A DNA stretch of 34,677 bases, from positions 1 to 34,677 of IMG/VR virus record IMGVR_UViG_3300025898_000025. The stretch is one strand, 5' to 3'. This stretch comes from a virus. Each line of letters opens with the position of its first letter. The stretch's first letter is position 1. The translations under genes were made by a program, and so were the position numbers. Below are positions 7,261 through 27,963 of the stretch, in pieces. The notes below the pieces were generated by a model. It was not told the DNA's origin, searched no databases, and saw only the letters and a list, made by a program, of their open reading frames with translations.

Positions 7261-7290
7261 CGGGCCCCGGACCCTGAGGTCCGGGGCCCG
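7261..7290 (-). terminator. Terminator-like hairpin, perfect 13 bp
   Basis: CGGGCCCCGGACC pairs perfectly across a 4-nt loop, 15 bases after the stop of the dUTPase-fusion gene. It closes the nucleotide operon. No long T-tract, as is common in high-GC actinobacteria. Confidence 0.75.
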
Positions 7291-7304
7291 CAGGCGGAGT
7301 CTGG

Positions 7305-8207
7305 TCAGGCACCGCTCGACCCGAATCCGTTGACGCCGCGCGACTTGTCGGTGCGGACCTGCCCCCAGCGCGGCACGTAGTCCACGACCGGCGCGGGCAG
7401 CAGGATCAGCTGGGCGATCCGGTCGCCCGCCGCCAGCACGGTGTCCGTATCGCCTAGGTTCTTGACCCCGGCGAACAGCTCGCCGGTCCACCCGGCGTCG
7501 ATGACTCCGGTGCTGACCAGCAGGTTCCGGCGCCGCAGCGACGACGAGCGACCGGTGATCATCGCCCACGTCCCGTGCGGCAGGTCCACCTTGACTCCGC
7601 TGGGCACGTCGACGAACGCGCCCGCCGGTACCTCGGTGTCGGTGCTCACGATCAGGTCCAGCCCGGCGTCGTCCGGGTACCCGCGCACCGGCAGCAGGGA
7701 CCGCAGCGTCCCGCCGACCTCGGACACCTGGGTCAGCGTGTCGGTAGCCACCGGCTCGAACACCAGCGGGCGGCGGTCGCCGTCGAATCGCTCCAGCAGG
7801 GCCAGCTGCTCCAGCATCCACGCGGCGCCCGCCTTGATCTCGCCCACGTCCGGGTACACCACCTTGACGTGGGTCCACCGCTCCCAGGACCGCAGGACGG
7901 CCGACACCTCGATGTCGGTCACGATCAGGGACGGCCGGGCCGACCGGACCAGCTGGGCGATCTCGTCCGGCGTCCCCAGGGTCGGCACCCCGGCAGGCAA
8001 CAGCGCCACCCCCCCTCGGGCCGACGCAAGCGCGAACTCGTTCACATGCTGGATGGCCGCGCTCACCTCACCGGCCCGGAACGCGTGGGCGGGGCGGTAC
8101 ACGTCGTGCTGCCCCAGCACCAGCTCGTCCTCGACCATGCTGGCCGCGTCGTACAGCCAGTTGGGCAGCCCGTCGGCCAGATCGATCGGCCTGGCCAGAT
8201 ACACCAT
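7305..8207 (-). CDS. Nucleoside deoxyribosyltransferase-like / dUTPase fusion
   Basis: A 300-residue two-domain protein. Residues 1-135 resemble nucleoside 2-deoxyribosyltransferases (MVYLARPID at the start and LPAGVPTLGTPDEI at 70-83), enzymes that exchange bases on deoxyribose or cleave nucleotides. Residues about 170-300 are a trimeric-type dUTPase with all five motifs: DAGLDL (180-185), GRSSSL (219-224), GVIDAGWTGEL (234-244), GDRIAQLIL (261-269) and RGVNGFGSSG (290-299). Trp240 stands where the uracil-pocket Tyr usually is. The ATG overlaps the upstream stop (TGATG). As the last gene of the purZ-like operon, it probably shapes the dNTP pool. Whether both domains are active is unknown. 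Confidence 0.9.
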   Translation of the reverse strand: MVYLARPIDLADGLPNWLYDAASMVEDELVLGQHDVYRPAHAFRAGEVSAAIQHVNEFALASARGGVALLPAGVPTLGTPDEIAQLVRSARPSLIVTDIEVSAVLRSWERWTHVKVVYPDVGEIKAGAAWMLEQLALLERFDGDRRPLVFEPVATDTLTQVSEVGGTLRSLLPVRGYPDDAGLDLIVSTDTEVPAGAFVDVPSGVKVDLPHGTWAMITGRSSSLRRRNLLVSTGVIDAGWTGELFAGVKNLGDTDTVLAAGDRIAQLILLPAPVVDYVPRWGQVRTDKSRGVNGFGSSGA

Positions 8208-8491
8208 CAATGTTCTGTCACCTCCGACAGGTCGTAGTACCGGCTCTTGACCTGGTTGGCCACCAGGTCGACGGCGTACCACAGCTGGTTGACCGGGTCG
8301 CCGGACCTGTCGCCGCCGGTCGCCAGCCAGATCACCACACCCGATACGAGGATGGCCGGATCGGTACCCCGCCGGGTGTGGTGGTCCATCAGCAGCTGGA
8401 CATAGGCCGTCCTGAGCCGGGCGCGGTTCCTGCTGCTGAGCCAGTTCAGCTGCTGGCTCAGCTGGGCCGCCGACGACTGCAGCTCGGCCAC
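8207..8491 (-). CDS. Unknown 94-residue protein inside the purZ-like operon
   Basis: A GTG start at 8491 with AGG six nt upstream; an in-frame TTG at 8509 overlapping the upstream stop is an alternative. The protein is mainly helical, with segments LSQQLNWLSSRNRARLRTAYVQ and ILVSGVVIWLATGG, and has no catalytic motif I recognise. It lies between the MazG-like gene and the dUTPase fusion with one-base or near overlaps, so it is expressed with them. It could be an accessory factor of the aminoadenine pathway, or a passenger. Confidence 0.7.
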   Translation of the reverse strand: MAELQSSAAQLSQQLNWLSSRNRARLRTAYVQLLMDHHTRRGTDPAILVSGVVIWLATGGDRSGDPVNQLWYAVDLVANQVKSRYYDLSEVTEH

Positions 8492-8502
8492 GGTGGGCCT
8501 GC

Positions 8503-9180
8503 TCAACCCGGCCAGTTTCCGGCCGCTCGGATCCGCCGAGCCATCATGGCGTAGGTCACGATGTCCAGCAGCGTATCGTCGCCGACCCGCTCGCCGCGCA
8601 GGACGGCGTCGCTCCACCGTCCGGACTTGCCGGTGATGTAGTTCCAGCAGCCCAGCTCCAGCGCTTCGTCGTCGGTGACCTCGCGGCCCTGCAGCTTGGC
8701 GACCTTGCGCCCCTCCTCCATCAGGCTGTTGCTGCCGTAGGCCGCCGCCTTGATAGCCGCCGCGTGTGCGTCGCCCCGGGCGATCGACACCCACCACGCC
8801 TCCAGGTCGGGTGCGGGCCCGGCGGTCTCGCGGCCCTGCAGCTCGTGCACCTGCTCGGCGTGCAGCAGCCCGGTTGCCACCCCCGTCCACTCGCGCGGCG
8901 GGCTCGGACGGGCGTCGGCCTCATTGACCCTGACCTCGGTCACGCGCGGCGGCAGCAGGGCAGCCTGCTGCGGAGTGGGGATCGGCGCACCCGGTGCCAC
9001 CGGGTCGAAGATCCGGGGGGCGCGGGCCGGATCGACCACTCCGCCGACCGCCAGCGCCCCGGTCGGCTCCGGATCGGTGCCCGGCTCCCGCTGCCCATCG
9101 TCGAAGACGGCGGGCAGCACGGCGGTCTGGTCCATCGTGCCCTGGACCTTGGGCCTGCGGTGCTCTCCGTTGCCGGTCAC
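8503..9180 (-). CDS. MazG-like dNTP pyrophosphohydrolase (MazZ candidate)
   Basis: A 225-residue protein. The first 135 residues are Pro-rich and look disordered. Residues about 140-225 form an all-alpha MazG-like domain (NSLMEEGRKVAKLQGREV, EALELGCWNY, DDTLLDIVTYAMMARRIR); the acidic residues of the DDTxxD helix suit metal binding. In known Z-DNA phages a MazG-family enzyme (MazZ) turns dGTP into dGMP, the PurZ substrate. The position just after the purZ-like gene supports that role, but substrate choice is inferred. The GTG at 9180 overlaps the upstream stop (GTGA) and has GAGAGG; the ATG at 9135 is an alternative. Confidence 0.75.
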   Translation of the reverse strand: MTGNGEHRRPKVQGTMDQTAVLPAVFDDGQREPGTDPEPTGALAVGGVVDPARAPRIFDPVAPGAPIPTPQQAALLPPRVTEVRVNEADARPSPPREWTGVATGLLHAEQVHELQGRETAGPAPDLEAWWVSIARGDAHAAAIKAAAYGSNSLMEEGRKVAKLQGREVTDDEALELGCWNYITGKSGRWSDAVLRGERVGDDTLLDIVTYAMMARRIRAAGNWPG

Positions 9181-10328
9181 TCGTAGATCCTCTCGTCCAC
9201 CATGGCCGTGTCCGGCCCGGTGCCCACGTACGCCACGGTCGAGTCCAGGCAGTCCTGCGCCATCCGGGCCAGTTTGAACCGGGCCGTGTACGACAGCACG
9301 TCGAGCCGGGGGAAGATACTGGACCCGGTGGCATTCGATCCGGCCACCTCCGACTCGATCTGGTCGAACATGGTGGCGGCCAGCAGGACGCTGTCGCTGG
9401 GCGCGCCGTTGGCCTTGAACGCCTCGGCGGCCAGCTCGGCGTCCCATCTTCCGACCCGGCGGACCTTCTGGGTGACCGTGGTCAGCTCCTGCGGCAGGCC
9501 CAGCGTCTCCCAGCTGGTCTCCCCCTTCAGCGGGCCGCTGCTCCCGGCGACGCGGATCGGGTACGGGCGCATGCAGACCAGGACACGGATCCGGCTGCCG
9601 CGCCACGGCCACAGACCGACCCCGGCCTGGGCCAGGAAGTCGGTCGCCCGGCAGTCGCCCGACGTACAGAACGGGTAGTACCCGGCATGCTGGCCCAGCC
9701 CGTACCCCTGGGTGCCCTCGATCACCACCGCGCCGTTCGGCGACCTGAGCTGTCCGTCCAGCATCCGGGCCGTCCCGTAGGTGCAGCCCAGGTCGTACTG
9801 CGAGTGAACCTTGCCCCACAGGTGGGCTTCGCGCAGCGTCCGGGCCGACCGCGCCGCACCGATACCCTTGGCCGTCGACCCGATCCGGTCGCGCAGCACC
9901 AGCCGCTCGGCCTGCCGGTGGTGCGGCTCGATCACGGTGGTCGTGGCGTCGATCAGCAGCCGCTCGGTCACCTTGTACCCGGCGCTGTCCAGCTGCCGGA
10001 CCTCGTGCACCAGCACGTCGGGATCGATCTCGCTGCCCTCGGCGATCACCAGGTCCGACAGCGGCGCCGTGACCGCCGACACCGGGACCTGCCGCAGCCG
10101 CCACGGGTGCCTGCCGCACGGGTGCGTCCCGGTCGGCTGGTGGTCCTGCTCGTCGCAGTCGGCCGGACAGTGGCCCAGCACCGTGTGCCCGGCGTTGGGT
10201 CCGCCGACTCGGACGCCGACCACGGTGTGGCTCCGGTTCTCCAGGTCTGCGGCCAGCCGACCGGCCACCGCGCCCTTGCCCTCACTTCCGAACTGTCCGC
10301 CGACCACCACATACAGCTTGCCTTGCAA
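9177..10328 (-). CDS. purZ: PurZ-type adenylosuccinate synthetase homologue (N6-succino-2-amino-2'-deoxyadenylate synthase)
   Basis: A 383-residue member of the adenylosuccinate synthetase family. The P-loop reads GGQFGSEGKG at residues 10-19, with Ser15 in place of the catalytic Asp of PurA (GDEGKGK). This change, from what is known of phage PurZ (S-2L, phiVC8), goes with use of dGMP instead of IMP. Other PurA landmarks remain: GGPNAGHTVL, STAKGIGAARSARTLR (for the TTKRGIGP loop), EGTQGYGLGQHAGYYPF and the Arg-rich VRRVGRWD near the C-terminus. The TTG start at 10328 is chosen because AGGGAGG lies six nt upstream; longer frames have no ribosome site. First gene of the operon behind the operator promoter at 10370. 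Confidence 0.88.
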   Translation of the reverse strand: MQGKLYVVVGGQFGSEGKGAVAGRLAADLENRSHTVVGVRVGGPNAGHTVLGHCPADCDEQDHQPTGTHPCGRHPWRLRQVPVSAVTAPLSDLVIAEGSEIDPDVLVHEVRQLDSAGYKVTERLLIDATTTVIEPHHRQAERLVLRDRIGSTAKGIGAARSARTLREAHLWGKVHSQYDLGCTYGTARMLDGQLRSPNGAVVIEGTQGYGLGQHAGYYPFCTSGDCRATDFLAQAGVGLWPWRGSRIRVLVCMRPYPIRVAGSSGPLKGETSWETLGLPQELTTVTQKVRRVGRWDAELAAEAFKANGAPSDSVLLAATMFDQIESEVAGSNATGSSIFPRLDVLSYTARFKLARMAQDCLDSTVAYVGTGPDTAMVDERIYE

Positions 10329-10369
10329 GATGTCCTCCCTTTGGTTGGCTGTCCGGCCATCTGGGCAGT

Positions 10370-10400
10370 AGTATCCCACCCTGCTTGGCCGCCGGTCAAG
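10370..10400 (-). promoter_or_regulatory. Promoter/operator of the purZ-like operon
   Basis: TTGACC, 18 bp, GATACT on the minus strand. The palindrome CTTGAC-N5-GCCAAG overlaps the -35. The leader to the TTG start is about 35-40 nt. Confidence 0.8.
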
Positions 10401-14031: not shown

Positions 14032-14272
14032 ACGGATCAACGTAGGCCACGATCTCCACGCTATCGCCGGACGCGTCGGGTCCTCTCCAGTCGATCTCCT
14101 GGACCTTCCACGCCTGTGGGCCCTTGACCAACCAGCCGTCGGCCAGAGCGTCGACCACGGCTGCGGCCAACACTCCGGGGTTGTCGGTCTGGGGCCACTC
14201 GAACCGTCCGTGGGCGGTATCGAACAGCGTCTGGCGGACCAGTTCGAACAGCTGCTGCCGGGAGCCGGTCAC
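14027..14272 (-). CDS. Small hypothetical protein
   Basis: An 81-residue protein. GTG start overlaps the polymerase stop (GTGA), so it is coupled to the DNA polymerase. Helical N-terminus (RQQLFELVRQTLFD) with an NPGVLAAAVVDALADGWLVKG segment; acidic overall. No recognised family; its position makes a replication accessory role conceivable. Confidence 0.7.
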   Translation of the reverse strand: MTGSRQQLFELVRQTLFDTAHGRFEWPQTDNPGVLAAAVVDALADGWLVKGPQAWKVQEIDWRGPDASGDSVEIVAYVDPS

Positions 14273-16518
14273 TTGGTGGCCTTCCAGCGCTCGGGGACGA
14301 TCGGGAAGGACATCTTGCGGCCACGGACCGAGTAGTCGCGCTCGTAGATCTCCGTGCCGATGGCCGCCGCCTGCTGGGCGAGAGAGTAGCCCGCGTCGGT
14401 GTCCGGCACCTCGACCACCATGCTGTCGTGGATGGCCAGCACCTGGATGCCCGGCAGCTCCCGCTCGACCTGGATCATCCAGGTCTTGCCGGTCTGGGCC
14501 AGGTCGCCCTGGATGACCGCGTTGAACGCCTTATGCGTGTGCTCGTCCGGACCGAACCAGCGGCGCCGCCCGTCGATCAGGGTGACGTAGCCGACTCCGC
14601 CCAGCCCCTTGTCGGCCTTGCACTGGATCCGGTACGGCACGGTGCGGAACTCGGGGAACTGGGCGTAGAACGCGTCGCGTGCCTCGGCCGTCTCCCTGCG
14701 GCTGTACTCCAGGCCCGTGTACTCCAGGATCTGGGCGCGCAGCGTGTCGATACCAGCGCCGTACATGGTGCCGAATGTGACCCGCTTGCCGACGCCCCGC
14801 AGGTCCTGGAAGGTGGGGTCGGTCTCCAGGATCCCCCAGATCCGCTTGGCGTTGGCGCCGTGCAGGTCCTCGCCCGAGTCGATCACGTCCCACATGGCAG
14901 AGCAGCCGGTCACCACCGTCGCGATACGGACCTCGCCCTGGGGCAGGTCCATCTCCCACAAGGCGTAGCCGGGCCGCGCGCCGATCAGGCCCCGGACCGG
15001 TCGGTCCTTGACCACGTCGGGCAGCTGATTGAAGTGGGGGATAGCCTGCAGCTGGACCCGGGAGACGGCCAGGCGGCCGGAGATCGCCCCGCCCTTGGGG
15101 GCGCCGGGCCGGTCCGACTCGATGGCGGTCTGCATGAAGTCGGTGCGCAGCCGTCCGTCCGGGCCGGTCCGCATCGCCCAGCCCCGGTACCACTTGCCCA
15201 GCGCGCTCTTGCAGTGCGACCAGTCGTCGTACTCGGCCGCGTACGGCTCGCCGTCCTGGACCAGCAGCCGGATCTGGGCCTCGTCCACGCACGGGTCCCG
15301 GCGCTTGTCGGTGACCTTGATGGGCGTCAGCCCGCGCCCGCCGTCCTCCTTGGCCCCGAAGTAGTACCGGCCGACCTCCTGGACCTTGGCCGGGTCGAAC
15401 GGCAGATCTCGGGCGATGTTGTCCATCTCGGCCTGGAGGTCGGCCGCCGCCTGCATGCTGGTCTTGGCGTCGTAGCTCATGCCCCGGCGCTGCATCCGAT
15501 ACAGCACCCGCATCAGGTCGATGTCCTTGTCGATCTGGTCCCAGGCCCCGGGCGGGGCGTCGCCCTGCTCGATCCGGGCGATCTGGCGGTACAGCAGCAT
15601 CAGGGCAAGCTCTGCGTCCCGGGCCGCGTATGGGCCGATGATCGGCCAGGGGATCAGGTCGTACCGCTTGGTCAGGCCGACGCCCAGTTTCTTGAGCGCG
15701 GCGGCCAGCTCCTCCTCCTCCCGGGTGCTGTCCTCGCCCCAGATCCGGCGGGCGGTCCGCTTCAGGGCCACCGGGTGCAGCGGATCCAGCAGCGCCTGGA
15801 TCAGCATCGTGTCGGCCAGCTTGGTATTGGGGCAGTGCTTGTCGATGTCCAGCCCGAATACGGGGCCGAGCGGGTCGTCTCCCCACAGGATCGGGTCGAT
15901 CGCCTGCTGGGCCTGCGGGCTGAACTCGGCGCGCAGCCGGGGGTTGTGCAGCCACTGGTCCCGGGCGATCTCCTCGCGCGGGCCCACCGTGGCCACGGTC
16001 AGGTCGTGCTTGGCGTTGTGCATCACGATGTAGTCGCGCGCCCGCAGCCACCGCAGCAGGTTGATCCAGTGTTCCAGCCCCAGGTTGGGGCAGGCCTCCT
16101 CGTAGGTCATCGGCCGGTCCGGCACCTCGCCGACCATGTCCTCCCCCGGCGCCGGTACCGCGTCCCCGGGGACGCGGAACTTCGACAAGATCTTGTCGAC
16201 ATCCTCCTGGGTCAGCAGCGGGTACCCCCCGCCGTCCCTCGGACGGCGGATCCGGCCCGGCTTGCCGACCATGGGGCCCTGGTCGAACGGCCAGGCGTGG
16301 CTGTGGATCTCGCCCGTGTCGGGGTCCATCCACGCCACGCTCGCCGCACTGACCCGGGCCGGTGGACTGCTCTTCTGCATGTTGGTGTCGGTACCGGGGT
16401 CGCCGTCGGGGTGCAGGCCGGAGCCCTCGGTGTCGAACAACACCGGCCACCCGGGCGGCAGGTCCGGCAGCGCCACCCCACCCACCACCATGTCCGACTG
16501 AACCGTTGTCCCGCTCAT
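14269..16518 (-). CDS. Family-A DNA polymerase with 3'-5' exonuclease (DpoZ candidate)
   Basis: A 749-residue Pol I-type polymerase without a 5' nuclease domain. The exonuclease domain (about 20-320) has all three motifs: DTE at 29-31, HNAKHD at 167-172 and YAARD at 297-301. In the polymerase domain (about 330-749), motif A is MDLPQGEVR with Asp524, motif B is R574...K578...FGTMYG to 587, and motif C is HDS at 697-699. The last position is normally Glu (HDE), and motif A differs from the usual DYSQIELR. Z-DNA phages carry a dedicated family-A enzyme (DpoZ), which this could be; the motif changes might reflect it. ATG has GAGGGG upstream and overlaps the preceding stop. Confidence 0.92.
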   Translation of the reverse strand: MSGTTVQSDMVVGGVALPDLPPGWPVLFDTEGSGLHPDGDPGTDTNMQKSSPPARVSAASVAWMDPDTGEIHSHAWPFDQGPMVGKPGRIRRPRDGGGYPLLTQEDVDKILSKFRVPGDAVPAPGEDMVGEVPDRPMTYEEACPNLGLEHWINLLRWLRARDYIVMHNAKHDLTVATVGPREEIARDQWLHNPRLRAEFSPQAQQAIDPILWGDDPLGPVFGLDIDKHCPNTKLADTMLIQALLDPLHPVALKRTARRIWGEDSTREEEELAAALKKLGVGLTKRYDLIPWPIIGPYAARDAELALMLLYRQIARIEQGDAPPGAWDQIDKDIDLMRVLYRMQRRGMSYDAKTSMQAAADLQAEMDNIARDLPFDPAKVQEVGRYYFGAKEDGGRGLTPIKVTDKRRDPCVDEAQIRLLVQDGEPYAAEYDDWSHCKSALGKWYRGWAMRTGPDGRLRTDFMQTAIESDRPGAPKGGAISGRLAVSRVQLQAIPHFNQLPDVVKDRPVRGLIGARPGYALWEMDLPQGEVRIATVVTGCSAMWDVIDSGEDLHGANAKRIWGILETDPTFQDLRGVGKRVTFGTMYGAGIDTLRAQILEYTGLEYSRRETAEARDAFYAQFPEFRTVPYRIQCKADKGLGGVGYVTLIDGRRRWFGPDEHTHKAFNAVIQGDLAQTGKTWMIQVERELPGIQVLAIHDSMVVEVPDTDAGYSLAQQAAAIGTEIYERDYSVRGRKMSFPIVPERWKATK
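16471..16503 (-). repeat. Dispersed G-rich repeat, copy F
   Basis: TTCAGTCGG, 10 nt, GGGTGGGGTGGCG (one mismatch to the exact copies), then CTGCCGGACCTG as in copy E. It encodes residues 6-20 of the DNA polymerase. Confidence 0.75.
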
Positions 16519-16889
16519 CGTCTCTGCCCCTCGATAGCCAACTGGTTGATACGCTGTCGCTTGTCCCAGCGGGCCTGGACGCTCATGCTGCCCAGACCCG
16601 TGCTGCCCCGCACGACCCGGCCCTGGCCCAGCGGCTCCAGCACGATGTAGCCCCGGCGGATGGCCTCGGCCAGGGTCCAGGCCGTGGTCGTGCCGCGTGC
16701 GTCGTGCCCCGGCCGGGTCTTCTGGGTACCCAGCCGGATGGCGGCGCGCCGCAGGTGGGTCTTGACCGTGCTGGGCATCATGTACAGCCGCAGGCCGACG
16801 GCCTCGGCGCTGTTGCCCAGTTCCGCCACGGCGTACAGGACCTGGGCCTCACGGTCGGTCAGCGGCGTACCCGGTTTGACCTCAGTCAT
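16515..16889 (-). CDS. LuxR/GerE-type helix-turn-helix protein
   Basis: A 124-residue protein. Residues about 9-75 fit the GerE/LuxR DNA-binding domain: PLTDREAQVLYAVAELG, then MMPSTVKTHLRRAAIRLGT as recognition helix and C-terminal helix. There is no receiver or ligand domain, so it is a single-domain regulator. ATG at 16889 has GAGG, overlapping the upstream stop, and the gene precedes the polymerase with an ATGA overlap. A transcription role is likely; its targets are unknown. Confidence 0.8.
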   Translation of the reverse strand: MTEVKPGTPLTDREAQVLYAVAELGNSAEAVGLRLYMMPSTVKTHLRRAAIRLGTQKTRPGHDARGTTTAWTLAEAIRRGYIVLEPLGQGRVVRGSTGLGSMSVQARWDKRQRINQLAIEGQRR

Positions 16890-25452: not shown

Positions 25453-27963
25453 CTACAGGTCGTAGCCGGACGATGACACTACTCGCTGTGACCACTCGGG
25501 CGGTAGCTCCCAGTACCGGCGTCCCTCGGCCTTGCCCAGCAGGGACCTGCCGACCTCGCGCATCCGGCTGCCCTCGCATCCGATGGCCTTGAGTTCCTTG
25601 CGGATCGAGTCGGCCGTGCCGAGCTGCTGCTCGCGGTCGGTCAGGTTCTTGCGCTCGCGCCACAGGTCCGCCGTCTGCTCCACCGAGACCCACAGGGTGC
25701 GCCGGGTGCTGTCCCAGAACACCGGGGACCAGCCCTTGGCGCTGGTGGGCACCCCTCCGGAGCTAGCGGCGCGCAGCACCCACGGCAGGATCTCGCTCAC
25801 CGCGAGGTTAGCCGCCCCCTCGTCGAACCTCTCGGAACACCACTTGTCGACCAGTGCGGCGTGGCCGATGTCTCCGGTGACCGCCTCCAGCACGCGAGCG
25901 CCCGTGCGCAGGATGCTGAGCTTGTCGGCGTGGCGCCCCCCGGTGTCCTTGAGGTCGGGCATCTGGGACAGGACGGGCGTGCCCGCGTCCAGGATCAGGG
26001 ATACGACCGACCCGGCCAGGTCGGTCAGCCCGCCCACTCGGCCGCCGTATTTGGCGGTCAGGGCCACGATATCGTCCCACTGCAGACGGGACGGGTCGAT
26101 CAGGCTGCGGCGGTCCCGGGGGGTGGAGAACTCCAGCCGGACCGCCCGGTCGCGCATCGCCTTCTCGGACATCATGGTGCCGCTGCCCTCGCCCGAGATC
26201 ATGATCGGGCTGATCAGCTGCTGGTTGGTGGTGCCGACGTTGTCCGCGTCCTTCTTGCCCCGGCTGCCCTCGGAGGTGGCCTGCCGGACCACATCGGCTA
26301 TCTGGGACACCTTGACGTCGGTCATGTCGTCCAGCCAGGCGATGCCGTTGCGGTGCGCGGCCACCGCGTCGCGGAAACTGGCCGGAGTGTGCTGCCCGGC
26401 GCCGTCCATCGACCCGGCCAGGGCGACCATCATGGCGAAGAATCCCGTGGTCTTGCCGGACTCGCTGCCCGCGTCCAGCATCATGAACGGGAACATCGAG
26501 CAGGGGTACCGGCCCTTGAGCAGGGCCATGGCCCACCAGGACCCGAACACGCTGGCCACCGTCTCGTCCTGGAAGGTCAGCACCTCGCGCAGGATCTCGC
26601 GCGCCGTGCCGCGATCCGCCATCCCGTACCGGTACCGCACATGCCCGCGCAGATAGTCGGCCGGGACCAGCGCGCCATGCGGCTCTACGCCACCCCCTCC
26701 CAGGATGCCCTCCGGAATCACGAAACTGCCGTCGGCCTGGTGTCCGTAGTGGGGGGTCTGCTCAGCGGCCGGGGCGTCCTGGGACATCAGGTACCTAAGC
26801 AGCCGGGTGTTGGACGACACCTTGCACGAGTCGTTGGCCGGGGGAGCGATGCTGGCGTGGTGGGCGGTCAGCCAGACCGTGAGCCTGTAGATGTTGCCCA
26901 GGATGTCGGCCGGGAGCGGCTCGTTCTCGTAGATGGTGTGGCCGGTGACCAGGTCCACGTAGAACGTGCGCTCGTCGTCGTCCTGCACGATCCGGCGGGC
27001 GCGCAGCTCGAAGTCGGACCACTCGGCCACCCGGACCAGGCCGTCCTCACCCTTGACGGTGGTGTACAGCCTGCCGTCCCGGGCGGCCAGGAATCCGCTG
27101 TCGGCCTCGAAGATCAGCCCGGCGCCGGAGTGCTGCTTGGCCCAGATGGAGTCGGCGACCTTCAGGGCCTCGGCCTCGTCGAGAGGGTCGTCCAGGGTCG
27201 TGCCCAGGTGGCGCACCAGCGCGGTGTAGCCGTCCTGCATCGGCGCCGGGAACAGCTTGGCCAGGTGACCAGCCACCTGGGTCAGCCAGTTGTTGCGGCC
27301 GTCGCCCTCGGAGGACGGCGGGCTCTCGATCAGATTGCGCAGCAGGGATTTTACGTTGCTATTCTGACGCTTGTGTGCGCTGCTCGGCCTGCTGGCGTTG
27401 CTGGGCTTCAGTTCGACAACGTTTGAATCTTCAGTAGGCTTATCGGACCGGAGGGGGTGGCGCAGGCACTCCGGGGCGTCCAGCAGATCGCCCCCCGCCC
27501 ACTCGTACCGGCGGCCGGTGGCGTGGACCGACGGCGGTATCACCACCCCCCCACCGTCCCCACGGAAGTCGTACCCCAGATCGTTGTCCGAATGCCCCGG
27601 CCACTCCCGCTCGTCCGTGTCGGGGATGCGGAAGTGCAGATGGACGCCGCGTCCGGTGGTGACCTTGAGCGCCCTGTCGTATAGATCTCCCAGCACCTCG
27701 CGCCAGCGCTGCTCGGCCTGGTCGCTGTCGATATCCAGGACCACCCGCCTGCTGATCTGGCCCGTGGCCAGCCACAGCCCCTTGGCCTCGTCGCCCTTGG
27801 CGAACGCCAGCCTGGGCCAGGGCTGCATGCGCTTGGCGACCCAGGTGCTGCGCCACTTGACACCGAGATCGCCCGGATTCTTTCCGCCCTCGGGCAACGG
27901 GAAGACGTACAGCCCCTCGGCCGCCAGTCTCTCCCATTCCCCCCGAACCGTGCCGTCGGACAA
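25453..27963 (-). CDS. Primase-polymerase / superfamily 3-like helicase
   Basis: An 836-residue fusion. The N-terminus (about 10-165) is an archaeo-eukaryotic primase (Prim-Pol) domain: VVLDID with Asp77 and Asp79, GRGVHLHFRIP with His108, and DFRGDGGGVVIPPS. The C-terminal ATPase has Walker A AGSESGKTT at 498-506 and Walker B IAWLDD ending at 546. Such proteins prime and unwind phage DNA at the origin. The TTG start is chosen for AAGGAG eight nt upstream. It lies next to the repeat region at 25.1-25.4 kb, which may be its origin. Confidence 0.9.
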   Translation of the reverse strand: MSDGTVRGEWERLAAEGLYVFPLPEGGKNPGDLGVKWRSTWVAKRMQPWPRLAFAKGDEAKGLWLATGQISRRVVLDIDSDQAEQRWREVLGDLYDRALKVTTGRGVHLHFRIPDTDEREWPGHSDNDLGYDFRGDGGGVVIPPSVHATGRRYEWAGGDLLDAPECLRHPLRSDKPTEDSNVVELKPSNASRPSSAHKRQNSNVKSLLRNLIESPPSSEGDGRNNWLTQVAGHLAKLFPAPMQDGYTALVRHLGTTLDDPLDEAEALKVADSIWAKQHSGAGLIFEADSGFLAARDGRLYTTVKGEDGLVRVAEWSDFELRARRIVQDDDERTFYVDLVTGHTIYENEPLPADILGNIYRLTVWLTAHHASIAPPANDSCKVSSNTRLLRYLMSQDAPAAEQTPHYGHQADGSFVIPEGILGGGGVEPHGALVPADYLRGHVRYRYGMADRGTAREILREVLTFQDETVASVFGSWWAMALLKGRYPCSMFPFMMLDAGSESGKTTGFFAMMVALAGSMDGAGQHTPASFRDAVAAHRNGIAWLDDMTDVKVSQIADVVRQATSEGSRGKKDADNVGTTNQQLISPIMISGEGSGTMMSEKAMRDRAVRLEFSTPRDRRSLIDPSRLQWDDIVALTAKYGGRVGGLTDLAGSVVSLILDAGTPVLSQMPDLKDTGGRHADKLSILRTGARVLEAVTGDIGHAALVDKWCSERFDEGAANLAVSEILPWVLRAASSGGVPTSAKGWSPVFWDSTRRTLWVSVEQTADLWRERKNLTDREQQLGTADSIRKELKAIGCEGSRMREVGRSLLGKAEGRRYWELPPEWSQRVVSSSGYDL

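Follow-up and report, generated by a model that had tools for sequence, protein, structure and literature searches.

Does the uncultured virus behind IMG/VR virus record IMGVR_UViG_3300025898_000025 write its DNA with 2-aminoadenine (Z) in place of adenine? The question is raised by an operon of four genes on the minus strand of this record, the whole of which (34,677 bases, G+C 65-72% in 1-kb steps) is referred to here as the window. It runs from purZ, a homologue of adenylosuccinate synthetase (PurA), through a "position-2" gene and a small gene to a fused enzyme of the deoxynucleoside triphosphate (dNTP) pool. We find that the operon is very probably the module of a PurZ0-branch phage for making 2-amino-2'-deoxyadenosine triphosphate (dZTP) and clearing dATP, a reading well supported by the PurZ tree, by synteny and by the recognition of the last gene product as DmtZ-DutZ. 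By analogy with characterised phages, from which we infer enzyme activity here and Z in the virion, the phage probably replaces A in its DNA by Z. The original prediction of a Z-DNA phage operon thus holds in its tree, synteny and fused enzyme, although the gene set is that of the PurZ0 branch, with DutZ and DmtZ, and not the classic one of PurZ with MazZ and DatZ. The phage joins the known PurZ0 Z-DNA phages, in which the operon logic has already been worked out (Ghobes and Wayne), and the activities of PurZ, DutZ and DmtZ have been shown by others in relatives (Ghobes, Wayne, S-2L, phiVC8). With it, the phages in which one of the four letters of DNA is rewritten gain an uncultured branch.

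The purZ gene (10328..9177, minus strand, 383 aa) begins with a TTG codon behind GGAGG and encodes the P-loop GGQFGSEGKG, in which, as had been predicted, Ser15 replaces the catalytic Asp of Escherichia coli PurA (QWGDEGKG). This serine is invariant across 10 aligned phage proteins. As a PurZ signature it is not diagnostic by itself, and the argument built on it is weaker than claimed, though its outcome is right, because cellular relatives carry Ser as well. A genome-contig scan over 84,980 species gave 540 relatives, and GSEGKG or GSEAKG is present in all of the best 80 of the 540, a count that is not a frequency since the scan used two patterns, GS[ET] or NAGHT. Such Ser-type homologues occur in many bacteria and some archaea, several of them on megabase contigs.

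Phylogeny is more telling. In a tree of 119 rows (quick search, with supports from the Shimodaira-Hasegawa-like approximate likelihood ratio test, SH-aLRT, only and no bootstrap) the window PurZ lies inside a 43-row clade with SH-aLRT 100, together with Ghobes, Wayne, Hiyaa and Goodman; besides all 42 rows of phage PurZ0, this clade takes in a single contig of a metagenome-assembled genome (MAG). Five PurZ-type phage enzymes form a separate clade, 60 of 70 cellular Ser-type rows form one of their own (SH-aLRT 99), and both PurA rows stand far from the window protein, E. coli PurA across a branch of 2.87. The phylogeny against PurA and PurZ called for by the original prediction therefore places the protein in the PurZ0 clade and not within PurA. 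The name PurZ0 reportedly goes back to Tong et al. 2023.

Model scores and residues point the same way. The NCBIfam model for PurZ, NF038379, gives the window protein 299.7 bits and the next model 179.7; the corresponding pairs are 366.7 and 189.0 for Wayne, 346.0 and 172.4 for Ghobes, and 374.2 and 184.8 for Hiyaa, and a near relative among the IMG/VR loci, L007, scores 307.9 bits with NF038379. For two cellular Ser-type proteins the PurZ and general synthetase models give 234.5 and 259.6 bits (L108) and 236.9 and 264.0 bits (L114). PurZ identity to the window is 44-49% for Hiyaa, Goodman and Moki (Hiyaa 49%) and 51.5% for Galactica. The nearest structure by sequence in the PDB is 7vf6, named a "PurA-like" enzyme (E 2.8e-71). 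The dGMP pocket of S-2L PurZ has been described as S23, N49, A50, T132, Q190 and V241 (PMC8342488); S15, N45, A46, T152, Q207 and V260 of the window protein, all invariant in ten phage proteins, are plausible, inferred counterparts. From its sequence, the window purZ probably encodes an N6-succino-2-amino-2'-deoxyadenylate synthetase acting on dGMP, Asp and ATP. RefSeq phage records (e.g. L003 and L004) and PHROG 1211 label PurZ "2-aminooxy adenylosuccinate synthetase", an apparent slip for "2-amino".

The last gene of the operon (8207..7305, minus strand, 300 aa) had been predicted to encode a dNTP-pool fusion enzyme, and its C-terminal half is indeed a dUTPase domain (PF00692, E 1.6e-23), 44% identical to Ghobes DutZ over 128 aa. 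Pfam has no match for the N-terminal half, which is nevertheless homologous to the proteins of Hiyaa (36%, E 2e-26), Wayne (E 2e-9) and Ghobes (DmtZ, E 2e-7) in a set of four sequences; across 318 alignment columns the whole fusion shares 35% identity with that of Wayne (E 4e-47 for a 15-protein set). An AlphaFold2 model of the N-terminal half, built on 26 sequences, reaches a mean predicted local distance difference test (pLDDT) score of 90.3 and matches MilB (Foldseek E 1.2e-5, Z-score 14.1) and DNPH1 (Z-score 13.6). Residues Y3, D9, P39, N56 and E82 align with Tyr6, Asp12, Pro57, Asn77 and Glu103 of Ghobes DmtZ, mutants of which are described as having lost or lowered activity (PMC12884076). 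All five are invariant in 5/5 rows; across 26 rows Y3, D9, P39 and E82 remain invariant and N56 is kept in at least 90%. Homology, predicted fold and catalytic residues together mark the fusion as a DmtZ-DutZ, its N-terminal half a predicted dAMP N-glycosidase or transferase of the nucleoside deoxyribosyltransferase (NDT)/DNPH1-like type and its C-terminal half a predicted dUTPase-fold (d)NTP diphosphatase. According to PMC12884076, in which the Wayne and Ghobes enzymes were assayed, the fused enzyme of Wayne yields adenine from dATP and dGMP from dGTP, DmtZ transfers deoxyribose phosphate from dAMP onto Z, and among PurZ0 genomes dutZ is found in 98/98 and dmtZ in 85, fused in 77 of these 85. 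In our own set, made up of the window plus 79 IMG/VR loci, the fusion occurs in 22, matches to both halves lie in two open reading frames (ORFs) in 43, and in 15 one or both fall below threshold, some at contig ends.

The gene order, purZ, second gene, small gene and fused dUTPase, is not due to chance, because the same order recurs in the Arthrobacter phages Moki and Wayne (Korravirus), which also share the upstream family-A polymerase and the fused DmtZ-DutZ. Their second and small proteins are not homologous to those of the window; the second gene of Wayne encodes DUF5664-1 (PF18909). The Streptomyces phages Hiyaa and Galactica (Hiyaavirus), the nearest named relatives by PurZ identity, share the position-2 domain (55% over 100 aa) and the fused DmtZ-DutZ, and differ in having a longer position-2 protein, no annotated small gene, a PurB-like lyase of their own and genomes of 81-83 kb. 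The Gordonia phage Ghobes shares PurZ0, the position-2 protein (gp51, 47% over 100 aa), DmtZ and DutZ, the latter two encoded by separate genes, and has its own adenylosuccinate lyase. PurZ-type phages (S-2L, phiVC8 and SH-Ab 15497 in print; VP2, DMU1, BUCT555, ZP6 and Kokobel2 here) have a Ser P-loop PurZ and Z chemistry in common with the window, but carry GSTGKG in place of GSEGKG, fall into another clade and use DatZ and MazZ or DUF550 rather than DutZ and DmtZ (PMC12884076, PMC8342488). Named phages of the PurZ0 branch infect actinobacteria. Phage PurB-like lyases lie near purZ0 in L003 (6374-7747), in L086 (4090-5223) and in 33/80 IMG/VR loci, directly behind the position-2 gene in 12 loci.

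A family-A DNA polymerase gene (16518..14269, minus strand, 749 aa) ends 3.9 kb from purZ, matching the predicted distance of about 4 kb upstream. In a tree of 39 sequences the encoded DpoZ-like protein groups with those of the near relatives L006-L008 (100/99) and next with Hiyaa and others, within a clade of 31 PurZ0-phage polymerases (100/99) that also includes Streptomyces phage Crosby. The polymerase fits selection of Z and does not prove it, because Crosby shares the clade with no PurZ found; it is not among the five Streptomyces phage records with a PurZ match. The Crosby polymerase gene (L176:1234-3246) adjoins a gene annotated MazG-like. Just upstream of the window polymerase gene lies a gene for a sigma-factor-like protein (16515-16889, minus strand; E 1.1e-4).

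Taken together, the parts suggest a pathway in which the DutZ half would strip pyrophosphate from dGTP and dATP to give dGMP and dAMP, and PurZ0 would join dGMP to aspartate, with ATP as energy donor, yielding N6-succino-2-amino-2'-deoxyadenylate (dSMP). Host adenylosuccinate lyase and kinases would carry dSMP on to dZTP, while the DmtZ half would break dAMP down to adenine, or move its deoxyribose phosphate to free Z base, and dATP would not be rebuilt. The phage polymerase would then place Z opposite T.

Several observations weigh against this picture. The window PurZ falls 0.3 bit short of the NF038379 cut-off of 300 bits, and its polymerase scores 265.9 with the polymerase model NF038381 (cut-off 350), below the 329.3 of Crosby; this model does not discriminate, a phage with no PurZ found outscoring the window. 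A polymerase clade restricted to PurZ0 phages is rejected by an approximately unbiased (AU) test (p 0.032, long branches being present). The window fusion does not conserve Trp124, the proposed lid of Ghobes DmtZ, and no DmtZ was detectable in the near relatives L006, L008 and L009. No adenylosuccinate lyase was found in the window or in its sister contig IMGVR_UViG_3300006175_000014, which is the same virus (99.988% identity over 17,149 bases), and a host lyase must therefore serve. What else might the operon be? An ordinary PurA that boosts the host AMP supply, with the operon acting in general nucleotide salvage, would account for the fold family, for the PurA landmarks, most of which are kept, and for the Pfam assignment (Adenylsucc_synt). 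It is scarcely credible in view of the Ser that stands where PurA has its catalytic Asp, the tree distance to PurA, a PurZ model score 120 bits over that of the next model, and companion genes typical of Z-phages; we reject ordinary PurA identity on the tree and the model scores. A 2-aminoadenine nucleotide might also be made only to replace A in part, or for a role outside the genome such as counter-defence or signalling. Ser-PurZ-like loci of bacteria and archaea near a dCTP-deaminase-like protein, some with a deoxynucleoside kinase, suggest that the chemistry may have other uses, and a same-clade polymerase occurs in a phage with no PurZ found, the Z specificity of the polymerase being a prediction. 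We consider this improbable, given that phages described as having complete Z substitution carry this full set of PurZ0, DmtZ-DutZ and polymerase (PMC12884076).

The new element is the position-2 gene family, a usual companion of the PurZ0 set on which the key paper is silent in its main text. The main text of PMC12884076 mentions neither MazG nor Ghobes gp51 (AOE44402), Hiyaa or Microbacterium, and no other paper evidently on the family was found in the literature searched, judged from titles and abstract openings. The window gene (9180..8503, minus strand, 225 aa) overlaps the purZ stop with GTGA. IMG/VR PurZ loci were fetched with a PurZ0 alignment, giving 252 relatives; in the best 80 of these 252, of which L002 is the window's own virus, BLAST placed the family at most 1 kb behind purZ in 79/80, and a profile search found it in 80/80. 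As 44 of the 45 training rows of the profile come from these 80 loci, the others of the 80 alone are independent matches. Beyond the 80 loci, the profile matched Hiyaa, Galactica, Goodman, Ghobes and Frizzle, and also L096, the MAG contig of the PurZ tree. DutZ was less constant, being found in 73/80 of the IMG/VR loci, with some contigs ending early. At E 0.01 the profile matched 0/79 of the other cellular loci, and there was no match in Moki, Wayne, VP2, DMU1, BUCT555 or Kokobel2. Against strict linkage to PurZ0 speaks a weak match in the PurZ-type phage ZP6 (L093; 17.2 bits, E 0.0034).

Among 50,697 phage records searched by tblastn with a single query (L012, E up to 0.01), 31 had position-2 matches: Microbacterium 18, Gordonia 6, Streptomyces 5, Curtobacterium 1, Micrococcus 1 and Arthrobacter 0. 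PurZ searches returned equal numbers in those five genera, plus 105 Arthrobacter records; accession by accession the two sets coincide for 25 of these records (Microbacterium, Micrococcus, Curtobacterium and Streptomyces), and the six from Gordonia agree by number. The PurZ0 status of all 31 rests on identity, Hiyaa, Galactica, Goodman, Ghobes and Frizzle being present in the PurZ tree. In the two Arthrobacter phages examined, a DUF5664 protein takes the position-2 place. The homologues are annotated hypothetical in 31/31 records.

What this second gene encodes is a separate matter. The original prediction called it MazG-like, a label that finds no backing in family models or motif and no clear backing in fold. 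Matches of the window protein in Pfam (best E 0.35, well short of the cut-off), PHROGs and NCBIfam did not rise above noise. PF03819 (MazG) had no match in the window or sister contig, the control matching 12/14 genomes; phosphoribosyl-ATP pyrophosphohydrolase (PRA-PH) models had none in the window; and PF18909 (DUF5664-1) did not match the window protein, its Wayne counterpart doing so at 3.5e-32. The structure model is helical (pLDDT 84.8) and has no fold match above noise in Foldseek/VIA. The C-terminal helical core bears the motif KA.EYGS..L...G......ELG..FY..GK..R......DDT..D...Y..M. Faint resemblances are scattered: phrog_474 ("phosphofructokinase") is matched by 10/45 relatives (best E 4.7e-4), phrog_1485 by 2/45 (2.3e-4) and phrog_37386 by 3/45 (0.0035), in each case not by the window copy. 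In BFVD the name DUF6378 stands on 5/50 among the matches listed (E 0.03 to 1.5), PF19905 is matched by 2/45 family members (best E 0.056), and hhalign with a Salmonella phage 9NA protein (268 aa, taken as the DUF6378 entry by its length) and with nine relatives gave E 0.024 and 0.063, respectively, with probability at most 2% in both. We regard this DUF6378-like resemblance as a hint only. The gene might nonetheless be a true MazG/MazZ-type dGTPase too diverged for family models: its core is all-helical with conserved E76, D103, D107, K86 and R89, it adjoins purZ, the DUF6378 resemblance would suit it, and three iMazG chains appear in the structural list at Z-scores of 4.6-5.2. Those chains, however, rank among unrelated helical proteins; ExxE...ExxD is absent from the residues conserved in 45 relatives, where E76, D103 and D107 alone are invariant acidic residues; and hhalign against the MazG-annotated protein of Crosby, the MazG-family protein of BUCT555 and the DUF5664 protein of Wayne gave nothing, single-sequence hhalign being weak evidence against distant kinship. 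A diverged MazG is thus rather unlikely. We propose that the position-2 protein is a dNTP-pool enzyme with a helper role, and see an even chance that it founds an undescribed PurZ0-bound enzyme family, a third way, unrelated to DUF5664-1 and MazZ/DUF550, of converting dGTP to dGMP or removing dATP. If so, it should be required if Z is to replace A completely; conserved beside purZ0, the family is ready for expression and assay.

The remaining features of the operon are minor. The third gene (8506..8207, minus strand) encodes a protein of 99 aa with no family match in profile searches, the homologues of which, in the loci examined, occur solely in L006-L009, which are near relatives, and in the same virus, L002. 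It overlaps the preceding ORF with TTGA, and the fusion gene follows with a TGATG overlap; the predicted gapless operon is borne out by these three ORFs joined by start/stop overlaps, apart from the MazG-like label on the second. The single promoter once assigned to it may be the promoter-like site TTGACC-18-GATACT (10399..10370, minus strand), which precedes the start codon of purZ by about 42 nt and has a 9/12 match. Shuffled sequence would yield 0.7 such sites where one was found, and therefore its position alone favours the promoter reading. Behind the operon a perfect 13-bp G+C hairpin (7290..7261, minus strand) agrees in part with the predicted terminator, a 71-nt fold reaching -44.2 kcal/mol (z -3.19), but it lacks a T-tract and a terminator scan of this operon end called none.

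The cellular Ser-PurZ-like synthetases (L097-L175, e.g. L114:384-5086 from Nitrosomonas halophila), encoded on bacterial and some archaeal contigs, have a neighbourhood of their own. A dCTP-deaminase-like protein is encoded on the same stretch in 62/80 cellular loci, mostly adjoining, and several of these proteins have, by eye, an apparent C-terminal membrane segment; a deoxynucleoside-kinase-like protein is present in 20/80, and upstream proteins of four loci have RNase H-like, AAA or DUF429 domains. PADLOC, run on one such synthetase, gave no match, and its neighbours matched weakly; no similar system was evident from titles in the literature searched. Possibly these loci form an undescribed system that works through nucleotides or modifies DNA and is related to the source of phage PurZ. 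Plasmid records matching PurZ number 49. The Verrucomicrobia MAG contig L096 (CAIOKD010000330.1), with a phage-type PurZ0, a position-2 gene and a dUTPase, is probably a phage binned with the MAG. In the 34,677 bases of the window, tRNA genes were looked for and none was found; a primase/polymerase is encoded at 25453-27963 on the minus strand.

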